A stretch of 64,000 nucleotides of DNA from Spirosoma luteum DSM 19990 (GTDB lineage Bacteria > Bacteroidota > Bacteroidia > Cytophagales > Spirosomataceae), in the NCBI RefSeq assembly GCF_000374065.1, contig NZ_KB893301.1, positions 89,429-153,428 on the forward strand, given 5' to 3'. The position numbers and the translations under genes were made by a program. Under the pieces are notes generated by a model. That model had not been told where the DNA came from, did not search any database, and saw only the letters and a program-made list of their open reading frames with translations. Of this stretch, positions 43,907 to 50,456 are shown piece by piece; the first letter of the stretch is position 1; each line of letters begins with the position of its first letter.

Positions 43907-44068
43907 AAAAGCATTCGTAATCCGTAAATCGTTCTAAAAAATATAATGTCCAGTACCGACAGGTATGGTGTAAGTAGGGTGATAATTGCCAATATGAATC
44001 TGACCATGGGGAAAAGAAGCGTAGAAGTAGGTAGATTTAAAATAGATAGTTATACCTATATTCGCAGG

Positions 44069-44476
44069 ATGACACCTGAACGCAGACTTGACCAGTTAGA
44101 GCCACTGATGGCTGACGCACTCCAAAAAATTGATCGCCTGATTGAAGGTCAGGGCAAACTGATTGATATGGTTACCCGCGCCGACCAGAATGCAACCAAT
44201 GCCGCTGCGCGAGCAGACTACGCTGCTGAGCGAGCAGACCACGCTGCTGAGCGAGCGGACTATGCCGCTGAACGAACAGACTACGTTGCTGGGCGAGCAG
44301 ACTATGCTGCTGAAAAGGCGGATTACGCTGCTGAGCGAGCAGACTACGCTGCTAAAATGACTGATACAACAGCTAAAGGTGTGGCTAACCTCACTGTATC
44401 TATGCAGAAACAGTTTGACGAACTACGAACCGGGCAGGAAACAATTATGAATTATCTGCGGGAGAAACTTCCTTAA
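44069..44476 (+). CDS. Heptad-repeat coiled-coil protein
   Basis: Not recognised beyond its repeat. Started at ATG 44069 it has 135 residues: a short helix (PERRLDQLEPLMADALQKID), seven tandem heptads of the form (R/K)ADYAAE plus one decayed copy, and a C-terminal helix ending NYLREKLP. A single long coiled coil is predicted throughout; no signal or membrane helix. An in-frame start at 43946 would add 41 residues but overlaps the ara promoter region. The heptads are encoded by a 21-bp tandem repeat. Confidence 0.6.
   Translation: MTPERRLDQLEPLMADALQKIDRLIEGQGKLIDMVTRADQNATNAAARADYAAERADHAAERADYAAERTDYVAGRADYAAEKADYAAERADYAAKMTDTTAKGVANLTVSMQKQFDELRTGQETIMNYLREKLP
44210..44356 (+). repeat. 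21-bp tandem repeat (seven copies) in coding sequence
   Basis: Seven units of 21 bp, each encoding one coiled-coil heptad, with the period matching the reading frame so that copy-number change keeps the frame. Units differ by a few bases. Likely prone to slippage or recombination. Confidence 0.9.
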
Positions 44477-46910: not shown

Positions 46911-47864
46911 CTATTTTCTTGCTATTGCTTTTTTCACCTGTTCAACGATCTTGTCGGCTGTGAGGCCGTACTTTTCCATCAACTGGTCGGGAGTAGCACT
47001 TTCGCCAAATGTATCGTGAACGCCCACGTATTCCAGCGGGGCCGGATAGTAGCGGGCTAGTACCTGCGCCACACTATCGCCCAGGCCGCCATTGATCATG
47101 TGCTCTTCGGCCGAAACCGCACAGCCGGTTTTCTTCACCGATGCCAGAATGGCTTCTTCGTCCAGTGGCTTGATGGTGTGAATATTGATAATATCGGCTT
47201 CGATGCCCTGTTCCGACAGGATTTCACCCGCTTTGATGGCTTCCCAAACCAGGTGCCCTGTGCAGAAGATAGATACGTCTTTTCCTTCGTTCACTGTCCA
47301 GGCTTTTCCAATCTCGAACTTCTGGTCGACGGGGGTAAATACGGGAATAACCGGTCGGCCAAAACGCAGATAAACCGGACCAACATGTTCGGCAATGGCC
47401 AGGGTAGCGGCTTTGGTCTGGTTGTAATCGCAGGGATTAATAACCGTCATGTTAGGCAGCATTTTCATCATGCCCAGATCTTCCAGAATTTGGTGGGTAG
47501 CGCCATCTTCGCCGAGGGTCAGGCCCGCGTGCGAAGCGCAAATTTTAACGTTTTTGTTGGAATACGCTACCGATTGCCGAATCTGGTCATATACACGGCC
47601 CGTAGCGAAATTAGCGAACGTGGTGGCGAAGGGAATATGACCGCCAATGGTCAGGCCTGCCGATACGCCAATCATGTTGGCTTCGGCAATGCCACACTGA
47701 ACGAAGCGTTCCGGATTTTCTTTAATGAATGTGTCCAGTTTGAGCGAACCCGCCAGATCGGCTGTCAGCGCGATCACACTGGGGTTCGATTTGCCTAGTT
47801 CGGCTATGCCCGCGCCGAAGCCCGAACGCGTATCTTTCTTTTCGGTATAGTCGTATTTTTTCAT
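46911..47864 (-). CDS. Transketolase, C-terminal subunit (canonical pair)
   Basis: A 317-residue C-terminal half of a split transketolase, with the catalytic Glu in CGIAEANMIGVSAGL, the ThDP-pyrimidine segment FATTFANFATGRVYDQIRQ and the C-terminal VSAEEHMINGGLGD. Together with the N half at 49509-50366 it forms a heterodimer of the pentose phosphate type. The TOPRIM-like gene ends 8 nt before its ATG. The nucleotides just before the ATG read TAGAGAC, also found in the nearby 80-bp repeat, a possible scar of the insertion upstream. Confidence 0.93.
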   Translation of the reverse strand: MKKYDYTEKKDTRSGFGAGIAELGKSNPSVIALTADLAGSLKLDTFIKENPERFVQCGIAEANMIGVSAGLTIGGHIPFATTFANFATGRVYDQIRQSVAYSNKNVKICASHAGLTLGEDGATHQILEDLGMMKMLPNMTVINPCDYNQTKAATLAIAEHVGPVYLRFGRPVIPVFTPVDQKFEIGKAWTVNEGKDVSIFCTGHLVWEAIKAGEILSEQGIEADIINIHTIKPLDEEAILASVKKTGCAVSAEEHMINGGLGDSVAQVLARYYPAPLEYVGVHDTFGESATPDQLMEKYGLTADKIVEQVKKAIARK

Positions 47865-47872
47865 AGTCTCTA

Positions 47873-48445
47873 TTAATTCGCCGAAGCGAGATTTTGCAAT
47901 TTAGTTAGAAAATACTGTGCCGAGGGACAGTTTGGGTGTTTTGCTGCGTTTTCGATGGTGAAGCCATTGTTCTTCATGGCATTCGCCAGAAGAACTTTAC
48001 TCTTGCGAAACCGATTGAATCGGCCTGATTGTAAGCCTAAGTTGATAATGGTTGTTATCGCGTCTCCATCCGCTTCCGGAAACTCAATAAAAGTGTCAAC
48101 CCCAACAAAGTGACTCAACGTGGAGTCATCAGCCAGGTACCAGTTTTCAAATTCTTTGACGGCCACAATGACTGTTTGATCAGGGTGTTGGCTAACATCC
48201 TGTTTTGTCAGCGTTATACACAAATCTTTATCCAGATCAACTAGCACGTAAATATGCTCAGCACCTTTATCCAGCAGAATCTGACGGTGCTTGTTAATAC
48301 GCTCTGCACCGTATTCTTTTTTACCACCAGCTTGCGTAACGCCAATCAACTCTATACCGAATTGAGCAATGGATGCTCTGAAGCCGACAGTATCCAGAAT
48401 AATTGGTTCGGTTTCTCCTTCACAAATGATACCCAATTTTACCAC
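47873..48445 (-). CDS. TOPRIM-like protein (DUF4276/RloB-like), partner of the AAA ATPase
   Basis: A 190-residue protein with the marks of a TOPRIM nuclease domain: CEGETEP with E9/E11/E13 after the first strand (LGIIC), VLVDLDKD (D70, D72) and KEFENWYLAD (E98, E100). DUF4276, RloB and PARIS AriB-type proteins share these motifs. The start is GTG at 48445 and overlaps the ATPase stop by 7 nt, a classical sign of coupled translation. It is visibly AT-richer than the neighbouring genes. I infer a nuclease effector whose activation is controlled by the upstream ATPase in a phage-defence unit; the exact family cannot be fixed without a profile search. Confidence 0.65.
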   Translation of the reverse strand: MVKLGIICEGETEPIILDTVGFRASIAQFGIELIGVTQAGGKKEYGAERINKHRQILLDKGAEHIYVLVDLDKDLCITLTKQDVSQHPDQTVIVAVKEFENWYLADDSTLSHFVGVDTFIEFPEADGDAITTIINLGLQSGRFNRFRKSKVLLANAMKNNGFTIENAAKHPNCPSAQYFLTKLQNLASAN

Positions 48446-49416
48446 GGAATCCCACCTCCGAGAGCATTGGAAAGCCAGGCTTCGTCCATGGGTAAATCGT
48501 GCAAATCCATACCTTGAATTTGTTTAGTCTTCGTTACTCCTTCCTTCTTATCGACCAAAACAATTTCTTCGGATGTCAGCTGGGAGACCAGCATATGCGA
48601 GTGCGTATTGAGCCATATGTAATGGCCAAACTCTTCGCAGGCGTATCGACAAAGATTAACAAGTTCCTTAACAACCTTAGGATTTAGACCATTTTCTGGT
48701 TCTTCAATGCATAAAAACTGCGGTTCTTGGCTTTGATAAATGGCTGTTAGTAGAGCCAAAATGTTTTTTGTCCCATCAGAGATTAAGTCTTTGGTGAAAT
48801 ACTGAGGTGTTGAATTTTCGAACCAGTGTAGTTCATCCCGTTCATCAACCTCAACGGCTTTAAAACCAGGAACGAATAATTCGAGCCACTCGAAGATTTC
48901 AGCCTTTAGTACCTTATTGTTAAGTAGCCTCTTTAATACCTTTTCCAGATTTTTTGCTGATAGAGAAAGTCGACGGTTATCGTCTAAGGGTAATTTTACT
49001 AGATCTTCATTCTTCACAAAGAGCCTTGAAGAATTAGCGAAATACTGTTTGTATTCCGGTGACTCTTTTTCTTGGGTTGTTAAGTTATTTTCTTCCTCTA
49101 TGATTAGACCCCCGTATTCCTCTTGGAATTCTTCCTCTGAATAGGAATATTGAACACCGAAGTGATCGAAATACACATTGAAGGCGAATGTCTTAGTGGG
49201 ATCTTGTCTCCTCAAAAAGTTTGCGTATCCACCAAACAAACTTGTCACAATAACTTTTGAAGTCCTATATCTTAAATTCACAAACTCTAGAGCCTCGAAA
49301 ATATTCGATTTGCCCGACCCGTTGGGGCCAACAAAGACCGTGAACGGATTGGGCTCAATAAGCTCAATCCGTTCGATGGACTTGAAATTTTCGATTACTA
49401 AGGATTTGATTTTCAT
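48439..49416 (-). CDS. AAA (OLD/SMC-like) ATPase, putative defence sensor
   Basis: A 325-residue ATPase of the AAA_15/AAA_21 type found in OLD nucleases, PARIS (AriA), RloA and related defence proteins. MKIKSLVIENFKSIERIEL gives the typical N-terminus (ATG 49416); an in-frame start at 49485 would run through the repeat element and is rejected. Walker A is GPNGSGKS (30-37), the ABC-like signature LISDGTKNIL (211-220), Walker B FLCIEEPENGLNP (234-246), and a switch His in LNTHSH. Unlike OLD proteins the TOPRIM domain is a separate overlapping gene. Sampled 60-nt blocks here hold 24 and 22 G+C, versus 29 and 35 in the adjacent transketolase gene. Confidence 0.8.
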   Translation of the reverse strand: MKIKSLVIENFKSIERIELIEPNPFTVFVGPNGSGKSNIFEALEFVNLRYRTSKVIVTSLFGGYANFLRRQDPTKTFAFNVYFDHFGVQYSYSEEEFQEEYGGLIIEEENNLTTQEKESPEYKQYFANSSRLFVKNEDLVKLPLDDNRRLSLSAKNLEKVLKRLLNNKVLKAEIFEWLELFVPGFKAVEVDERDELHWFENSTPQYFTKDLISDGTKNILALLTAIYQSQEPQFLCIEEPENGLNPKVVKELVNLCRYACEEFGHYIWLNTHSHMLVSQLTSEEIVLVDKKEGVTKTKQIQGMDLHDLPMDEAWLSNALGGGIPW

Positions 49417-49422
49417 ATCTTG

Positions 49423-49502
49423 TGTAGAGACGCAATACCTTGCGTCTCTACACAAGATGGTATTGCTGACGCACATGAGACGCAAGGTATTGCGTCTCTA
49501 CA
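49423..49502 (-). repeat. 80-bp double-hairpin REP-like element, copy A
   Basis: Two short inverted repeats built on gtagagacgcaa and ttgcgtctctac, separated by a central gatggtattgctgacgcac stretch. The left stem is 16 bp if extended (49419-49434 with 49441-49456); the second stem is 8 bp. The loops (atacct and aggtat) are complementary, so the element is also one large palindrome. It lies 6 nt from the ATPase start and 6 nt from the transketolase N-half stop. A second copy lies at 50377-50456. Confidence 0.85.
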
Positions 49503-49508
49503 TATCGA

Positions 49509-50366
49509 CTAATAATCTTCCATTCCCACCGTCAAGGGCAGGCCATTCAGGGCTTGCGTTAGCTGGTCGGCGTTGGGGGCCGTGCCGTGCCATTTGTAAT
49601 TGCCCACCATGTAGTCGACGCCGAAGCCCATTTCGGTATGCATTAGAATCATCGTGGGTACGTCGGGGTTTTCCTGCGCTTTATTGAGTGTCCGGATAAC
49701 CTCGGCCATATCGTTCCCTTCCATTTCGTCAACGAACCAGCCAAAAGCGCGGTACTTGTCGGCCAGGCTCCGGTTATTGTTCACATTGTCGGTTGTGCCG
49801 TCAATCTGGGCGTGGTTCAGGTCGATAACGGCGGTCAGGTTGCCGAGTTTTTTGTTGGGCGCAAACTGAGCCGCTTCCCAAATCTGGCCTTCCTGTTGCT
49901 CACCGTCGCCCATGAGTACATATACATGATTTTTATCCCCATTGAGTTTTTTGGCATAGGCTGCTCCACTGGCTACCGATAAGCCCTGCCCCAGCGAACC
50001 GGAGGCAATCCGAACGCCTGGCAGGTGCTCGGCCGTAGTGGGGTGCCCCTGCAACCGGCTGTCGAGTTTGCGGAATGTTGCCAGTTCCGAAACCGGGAAG
50101 TATCCTGCCCGAGCCAACACCGAATAAAACACCGGCGAAATGTGGCCGTTGGAAAGAAAGAAAATATCCTCGTCGCGGCCATCCATATCGAAGACTGGAT
50201 TACCCCGGGCATCTTTTTTTCGGTTCATCACCTCAAAATAAAGAGCGACAAAAAAATCGGCGCAGCCCAACGAACCGCCGGGGTGGCCCGAATTAACAGC
50301 TGCAACCATCCGAAGGATGTCGCGCCGAACGGCCGTAGCCGTGCCTTCAAGTTGTTCGATTTTCAT
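49509..50366 (-). CDS. Transketolase, N-terminal subunit (canonical pair)
   Basis: A 285-residue N half of a split transketolase with SGHPGGSLGCAD near the N-terminus, GSLGQGLSVASGAAYA, and the ThDP motif MGDGEQQEG with DLNHAQIDG. The partner is at 46911-47864, separated by the ATPase and TOPRIM-like genes. It is flanked on both sides by copies of the same 80-bp repeat. It likely provides pentose-phosphate transketolase activity, linking the arabinose operon and rpe. Confidence 0.93.
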   Translation of the reverse strand: MKIEQLEGTATAVRRDILRMVAAVNSGHPGGSLGCADFFVALYFEVMNRKKDARGNPVFDMDGRDEDIFFLSNGHISPVFYSVLARAGYFPVSELATFRKLDSRLQGHPTTAEHLPGVRIASGSLGQGLSVASGAAYAKKLNGDKNHVYVLMGDGEQQEGQIWEAAQFAPNKKLGNLTAVIDLNHAQIDGTTDNVNNNRSLADKYRAFGWFVDEMEGNDMAEVIRTLNKAQENPDVPTMILMHTEMGFGVDYMVGNYKWHGTAPNADQLTQALNGLPLTVGMEDY

Positions 50367-50376
50367 AGTTTTACAC

Positions 50377-50456
50377 TGTAGAGACGTAATACCTTGCGTC
50401 TCATGACCGGATGGTATTGCCGACTCACATAAGAAGCAAGGGATTACGTTTCTACG
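50377..50456 (-). repeat. 80-bp double-hairpin REP-like element, copy B
   Basis: Same length, order and orientation as the copy at 49423-49502, with several base differences (for example gagacgtaat for gagacgcaat and a degenerate right hairpin). It lies between the transketolase N half and bcp; the bcp stop codon and last codon fall inside its left edge (50452-50456). Confidence 0.8.

Follow-up and report, generated by a model that had tools for sequence, protein, structure and literature searches.

A HEC-01-type ATPase and Toprim gene pair kept at one address between split transketolase genes in Spirosoma and its relatives, probably diversified by recombination

The window analysed here, a 64,000-nucleotide stretch from the 6.6 Mb genome of Spirosoma luteum DSM 19990, carries an ATPase gene and a Toprim gene between the two halves (tktN and tktC) of a split transketolase. 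From protein family membership and the comparison of related genomes, we propose that this pair is probably a two-gene abortive-infection system of the HEC-01 type (AbiL/RloAB-like), which holds a fixed address at tktN|tktC and has been diversified by recombination. The pair is locked to its site, has been lost with traces left behind, and has conserved ends, a mosaic interior and well-kept catalytic residues. The proteins are already known; what is new is the fixed core address with the apparent exchange of modules in place.

The four genes lie on the minus strand in the order tktN, ATPase, Toprim, tktC (Table 1). The initial annotation had read two overlapping genes between the transketolase halves, and both open reading frames are found there, the ATPase gene running from an ATG at 49416 to a stop at 48439 and the Toprim gene from a GTG at 48445 to a stop at 47873. 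Counting the window, 64 pairs were compared; the two genes share exactly 7 nt in 63 of them and 4 nt in the remaining one, and such constancy is not chance. From the Toprim stop to tktC the median distance is 10 nt (range -4 to 1043 in 56 genomes). Because of the overlap and this short spacing, the ATPase, Toprim and tkt genes likely form one operon. The same genome has a second split tkt pair (contig C4, 113523-114754), where the two matches end 18 nt apart with no insert; its tktN is 67% identical, and a similar second tktN match was seen in eight further genomes of the genus. Elsewhere in the window, a 21-nt tandem repeat in seven copies (44199-44353), located in the open reading frame 43946-44476, encodes a repeated AAERADY-like stretch.

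Table 1. Coordinates of the gene pair, its parts and its neighbours in the window, and of two relatives on E. coli plasmids
Feature	Position	Strand	Remarks
tktC	46911-47864	-	C-terminal half of split transketolase, 317 aa; downstream neighbour of the pair
Toprim nuclease-like protein, HEC-01B / RloB-AbiLii-like	47873-48445	-	190 aa
3' conserved end	47873-47923	-	last 16 Toprim codons and stop; DNA nearly identical in the genus
ATPase stop / Toprim start overlap	48439-48445	-	7 nt
OLD/AAA_21-type ABC ATPase, HEC-01A	48439-49416	-	325 aa; proposed sensor and antitoxin
Hypervariable module	48982-49281	-	ATPase residues 46-145; proposed recognition domain, apparently exchanged between species
5' conserved end	49282-49416	-	first 45 ATPase codons including Walker A; median DNA identity 0.92 in the genus
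Palindromic intergenic repeat, REP-like	49423-49501	.	79 nt; genus-wide; probably unrelated to the pair
tktN	49509-50366	-	N-terminal half of split transketolase, 285 aa; upstream neighbour of the pair
BREX-embedded pair, E. coli plasmid (L174)	7886-9570
BREX-embedded pair, E. coli plasmid (L175)	5886-7570

Profile searches show that the pair is a catalogued candidate defence system, HEC-01, which has the same two-gene composition. The best PADLOC match of the ATPase is HEC-01A (model PDLC04176, E=2.4e-88) and that of the Toprim protein is HEC-01B (model PDLC04191, E=5.2e-41), and these assignments agree for two ATPase relatives from outside the family and for the five Toprim relatives scanned. 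The suggestion that the system was undescribed must therefore be withdrawn. The initial annotation had also considered a housekeeping repair family; the profiles gave HEC-01A and HEC-01B in PADLOC and AAA_21 in Pfam (ATPase, 5e-28). The Toprim protein matched Pfam models under their cut-offs, namely RloB (E=0.0011, 19.6 bits against a cut-off of 31.5) and, likewise below, DUF4276. In NCBIfam it had no match, and none of the 25 ATPase matches listed came up to its cut-off. The AlphaFold model of the ATPase is of moderate confidence (pLDDT 78.4, pTM 0.77) and has as its nearest folds the first-ranked retron/Septu PtuA chains and Rad50/SMC heads (best E=3.4e-12, TM 0.58). The Toprim model (pLDDT 91.9) gave one match below 1e-3, to 6nk8, an OLD protein of Burkholderia, in its C-terminal region (E=6.3e-4, with a weak TM of 0.42).

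The residues expected of an OLD-type ATPase and Toprim pair (Walker A and B, signature, switch His, Toprim E and DxD) are present in the window, and the reading of these motifs as intact extends to relatives. Walker A (G30, G35, K36 and S37), the ATPase signature (S213-D214) and Walker B (E239) were found in 64 of 64 pairs and H272 in 62; in the Toprim partner, E9, D70 and E100 are invariant, E13 occurs in 62, and D72 in 55 with E in the remaining nine. The pair thus belongs to a known molecular kind, in which an OLD-type ABC ATPase and a putative Toprim nuclease are separate proteins.

Several named systems resemble the pair. HEC stands for Hma-embedded candidate (PMC12988326, PMC10855318, in the portions available); the available text of the former states that several HECs have antiviral activity, while that of PMC12724379 merely lists HEC-01 in a genome. 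Although the name derives from Hma defence loci, the surroundings here are tkt genes and those of the relatives are histidine-utilisation, rbfA, dapB or BREX genes; Hma embedding is a discovery context and not a property of HEC-01 proteins. AbiL of Lactococcus (AbiLi/AbiLii) likewise combines an ATPase with a RloB/Toprim toxin, but it is plasmid-borne, unlike the pair in the window, and its PADLOC matches (AbiLi 2e-25, AbiLii 2e-6) are weaker than those to HEC-01. Its abortive-infection activity is cited in the accessible part of PMC10440598, where the NetFlax study treats AAA:TOPRIM_OLD pairs, those of the RloB/AbiLii type included, as toxin-antitoxin and defence pairs and tested related ones as toxin-antitoxin pairs. 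PARIS also has an OLD-type ATPase sensor and a separate Toprim effector, and its AriA profile is the best match of our ATPase outside HEC (1.3e-31); according to the available sections of PMC12409363, AriA is the sensor and AriB a tRNase. The PARIS partner, however, is AriB (DUF4435), and our Toprim protein matched neither AriB in PADLOC nor DUF4435 in Pfam at E up to 1, which bears out the earlier description of an OLD-like ATPase with a separate partner unlike AriB. Septu/retron PtuA shares the ATPase fold, but its partner is HNH instead of Toprim. The Toprim fold resembles the C-terminal region of Class 2 OLD; in OLD and in GajA of Gabija, though, ATPase and Toprim are carried in one chain.

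By analogy with PARIS and AbiL, the ATPase would hold its Toprim partner inactive. It may sense infection through the hypervariable segment (residues ~46-145), as its variability suggests, and would then free the Toprim protein, a predicted metal-dependent nuclease that could cut tRNA, other RNA or DNA and so stop the infected cell, as AriA/AriB do in PARIS.

The distribution of the Toprim gene indicates a fixed address. We use "family" for the genome collection's own grouping; NCBI assigns Spirosoma to Cytophagaceae and Dyadobacter to Spirosomataceae, and the pair is found at tkt in both. A Toprim homolog was found in 24/36 genomes of the genus, as one copy each, and every one of the 24 copies is flanked by tktN and tktC; in G024 these flanks fall on separate contigs. 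Family-wide, 67/200 genomes had a match, 23 of them in the genus, and in all 67 the best copy adjoins tktN and/or tktC. The 44 non-genus members comprise 30 viewed as loci and 14 placed by coordinates, at 1.0-1.9 kb from tktN; some of the 44 loci are flanked by tkt on one side only, owing to contig ends. G040 has a further, weak match elsewhere, and G133 has two matches, both on tkt contigs. The same gene order occurs in Fibrella, Fibrivirga, Pseudarcicella and Dyadobacter records, and an Arcicella contig begins inside the ATPase gene and has tktC after the Toprim gene. Eight loci from four genera (L106, L108, L109, L111, L115, L141, L142 and L144) have a Uma2-type nuclease gene (PF05685; PADLOC candidate PDC-S03) between tktN and the ATPase gene, its name coming from the profile in L108 and from resemblance in the other seven. 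At a further locus (L119), a gene that by eye is hydrolase-like lies between Toprim and tktC.

The initial annotation had held that a pair carried at this position by all relatives, with normal base composition, would speak against a defence cassette. The position is indeed constant among carriers in genus and family, but 133/200 family genomes have no match and, in the 23 genus genomes with a full pair, the interior is never host-like in composition. The pair had been described as AT-richer than its hosts, and its interior exceeds both tkt genes in AT content in 23/23 genus genomes with a full pair. The conserved linkage to tkt would also suit a pair that has a housekeeping or regulatory role linked to transketolase, or to central carbon metabolism, and evolves fast for other reasons. 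We consider this very unlikely given the 133 genomes without a match, the hypervariable interior, the in-frame stops within the matches of G067, G036, G145 and G457, and the location of outside relatives beside histidine-utilisation, rbfA or dapB genes and of distant ones inside BREX.

Genomes without the pair reveal how this distribution arose. The transketolase halves are adjacent in 11/12 such genomes of the genus (including G017), the twelfth, G025, being without a tktN match, and in 20/20 genomes sampled, by hand among those with tktN listed, from the family's 122 remaining match-less genomes; in one of these 20 (L163) the start of tktC, overlooked by the search, is in a separate open reading frame ~100 nt from tktN. 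The halves are thus normally adjacent, as first supposed, and the idea of a general insertion hotspot was rejected on these counts. Gaps without the pair measure 5-354 nt, the longest being that of G017 and the rest at most 203 nt. Leaving L163 aside, 30 gaps were considered and 29 searched, a 5-nt gap being too short for this; the search found remnants of the pair's ends in five, two of them just 20-24 nt long, and none in the other 24, against 1/600 shuffled gaps. The gap of G017 holds a decayed ATPase start with the first 129 nt kept and stops thereafter. These remnants, with the constant position, show that the pair was lost in several lineages and exclude a recent insertion in the window, contrary to the initial annotation; gain of the pair elsewhere in the family is possible.

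A 79-nt palindromic repeat built around GTAGAGACGCAA...TTGCGTCTC does border the pair, but its proposed role as an insertion boundary does not stand. Since a second copy lies upstream of tktN (50377-50455), related copies occur elsewhere in the genome and similar letters are found in some tkt gaps without the pair, it has the look of an intergenic repeat found throughout the genus, and the 7-nt TAGAGAC can be no more than a leftover of such a repeat. If a repeat-flanked element had recently brought in a defence cassette by lateral transfer, the AT-richness and the repeat alongside would be accounted for; with the same position in every carrier, remnants in pair-less gaps and the repeat itself in such gaps and before tktN, this scenario is exceedingly improbable. 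It is refuted for the position, and a recent import of the interior alone is possible.

Within the genus, the first 135 nt and the last ~48 nt of the pair are nearly identical between species, and the interior is at or near background identity even where tkt is 95-99% identical. Across 21 genus genomes, the median DNA identity was 0.92 for ATPase codons 1-45, more than for tktN (0.79) and tktC (0.82), and fell to 0.415 for codons 46-145, 0.64 for 146-205 and 0.67 for 206-325; the Toprim start gave 0.49 and the Toprim end 0.75. At four-fold silent sites, identity in the genus was 0.777 for ATPase codons 1-45 and 0.82 for the last 16 Toprim codons, against 0.31-0.36 for the pair interior and 0.45-0.46 for tkt. 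The control genes are also raised (first 45 codons of a sigma gene 0.675, last 16 codons of tktC 0.696, first 45 codons of tktN 0.527), and codon constraint may therefore explain part of the conservation of the ends.

Between genera the picture is mixed. Comparing the genus with others at silent sites, the 5' end is higher than tktC against genera g16, g8, g3, g29 and g31, and hardly or not above it against g22 (0.30 versus 0.31), g36 (0.32 versus 0.25) and g5 (0.23 versus 0.24); the 3' end is above tktC against g8, g3, g29 and g5, and below it against g16 (0.27 versus 0.45), g31 (0.25 versus 0.38) and g22. Though not uniform, this pattern is explained better by exchange among certain relatives than by a constraint acting everywhere. 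The controls and the between-genus comparisons ruled out silent-site conservation as sole proof of recombination. Because the controls weaken its simple reading, the claim of exchange is carried by mosaics and trees.

The mosaic examples, both the G001/G021/G014 set and that of genus g31, were chosen after viewing alignments or trees. Between genomes G001 and G021, ATPase nt 91-540 are 0.35-0.69 alike, and the sharp difference is limited to residues ~46-180; every other window shown, whether in tktN, tktC, Toprim or elsewhere in the ATPase gene, gives 0.86-1.00. Over nt 91-540 G021 resembles G014 (0.58-0.88). The Toprim gene of G014, for its part, is unlike that of either genome, with 0.39-0.54 across nt 1-450. 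In three g31 genomes the tktN ends are 93-100% and the first 90 nt of tktC 98-99% identical; their Toprim interiors are 0.33-0.61 alike and their Toprim ends 0.97-1.00.

A broader count took all 243 within-genus pairs among 49 genomes with full genes, 210 of the pairs coming from one genus. In 33 of them tktC is at least 0.85 alike; among these close pairs the ATPase middle is at the codon-shuffled level in 21 and the N part of Toprim below 0.65 in 26, the Toprim interior being fully at this null in just five. The ATPase end exceeds tktC in 231/243 pairs and the Toprim end in 215/243. Trees agree with this. In the tkt and sigma tree the 24 genus genomes form one side of a branch with support 91. 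The Toprim data reject monophyly of the genus (p-AU 1.4e-5; AU test on 51 rows with quick trees, leaving out the outgroups and the long-branch G065, G131 and G041), and the Toprim tree splits the genus among several classes common to other genera. In that tree the Toprim sequences located at tkt stand apart from those outside; the support is modest (82), and G041 is the single exception.

Such mosaics are strong evidence for swapped modules. The ends and mosaics suggest that incoming alleles may recombine within the conserved stretches, 135 nt at the start and ~50 nt at the finish of the pair, and new recognition or effector modules would then be swapped in place without a mobile element. Phage selection for rare specificities may be what keeps old allele classes. 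Among the genomes compared we saw no donor and no direct recombination event. The genome's own silent store of cassettes was considered as a source and rejected, a protein search giving just four weak further matches. Were the pair a plain toxin-antitoxin addiction pair, its variability would reflect relaxed constraint and ancient divergence with no exchange; AAA:TOPRIM_OLD pairs do behave as toxin-antitoxin pairs in NetFlax (PMC10440598, available text). We regard this as unlikely, since relaxed constraint cannot give one unlike segment between alike flanks, as in G001/G021, or its sharing between G021 and G014, and the catalytic residues are nearly invariant.

Relatives outside the family are rare. 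A draw of 395 genomes of the class gave five strong matches (weak ones in G297, G503 and G507 were excluded from the members), and in two of the families concerned 2/36 and 3/61 genomes had a match, starting genomes counted. Six of eight outside loci adjoin histidine-utilisation genes, namely ftcD (L120, L121, L123, L165 and L166) and urocanase (L124); the remaining two have rbfA (L122) and dapB (L167) as neighbors. Histidine-utilisation genes, in several different families, are possibly a second fixed address. Distant Toprim homologs (~31%) are found on 11 E. coli plasmids, and on both plasmids viewed the pair, its genes likewise overlapping by 7 nt, lies within BREX, flanked by pglX and pglZ. 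The accessible part of PMC12839542 describes TOPRIM-linked OLD-ABC pairs that belong to BREX loci. As to mobile carriers other than these plasmids, no phage record matched and one viral contig did so at 27%.

Could the locus be a homing-like selfish element, its Toprim nuclease cutting other alleles or empty sites and being copied in by repair? One address in the family, conserved terminal DNA, patchy presence and absence, decay with remnants, and the recurrent addresses outside the family, with histidine-utilisation genes at 6/8 loci, would all be explained. Homing nucleases stay conserved because their target is, however, whereas the nuclease interior is variable here and the intergenic target is not conserved; moreover, homing elements are not known to include an OLD-type ATPase partner. 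We hold this explanation to have only a slight chance of being right.

We retain the reading as an abortive-infection system. Because of family membership, the BREX-embedded relatives, the Uma2/PDC-S03 gene at the same site and the variability, the role of the pair is probably defence. A fixed core-operon address and one copy per genome are unusual for a defence system and count against this; defence systems are usually found through their clustering in mobile islands. A literature search that covered few subscription papers and preprints found no description, for HEC-01, of a fixed core-operon address or of conserved ends with a swapped interior.

A wider reading, put forward tentatively and held at somewhat less than even chances, is that of a balanced locus like those of immune receptors. 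A sensor-nuclease would be kept at one core address family-wide, its terminal DNA serving as a docking platform, and recognition (ATPase residues ~46-180) and effector (ATPase C-half and Toprim) modules from ancient allele classes would be swapped independently across species and genera without a mobile element; other lineages would use histidine-utilisation, rbfA and dapB clusters. In type I restriction, hsdS is a fixed locus at which recognition modules are swapped between conserved stretches. The exchange of modules proposed here is similar, but the proteins are unrelated and it is ATPase sensor and Toprim effector modules that vary.

The pair sits in a core metabolic operon, inherited there across the family and apparently renewed by swapping parts in place. 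If this is true, island-based searches would overlook immune loci fixed in this way. A natural experiment is offered by near-identical genomes whose main difference is one ATPase segment of ~450 nt (G001/G021) or the Toprim allele, and these contrasts could reveal which segment sets phage specificity in OLD-type sensors.
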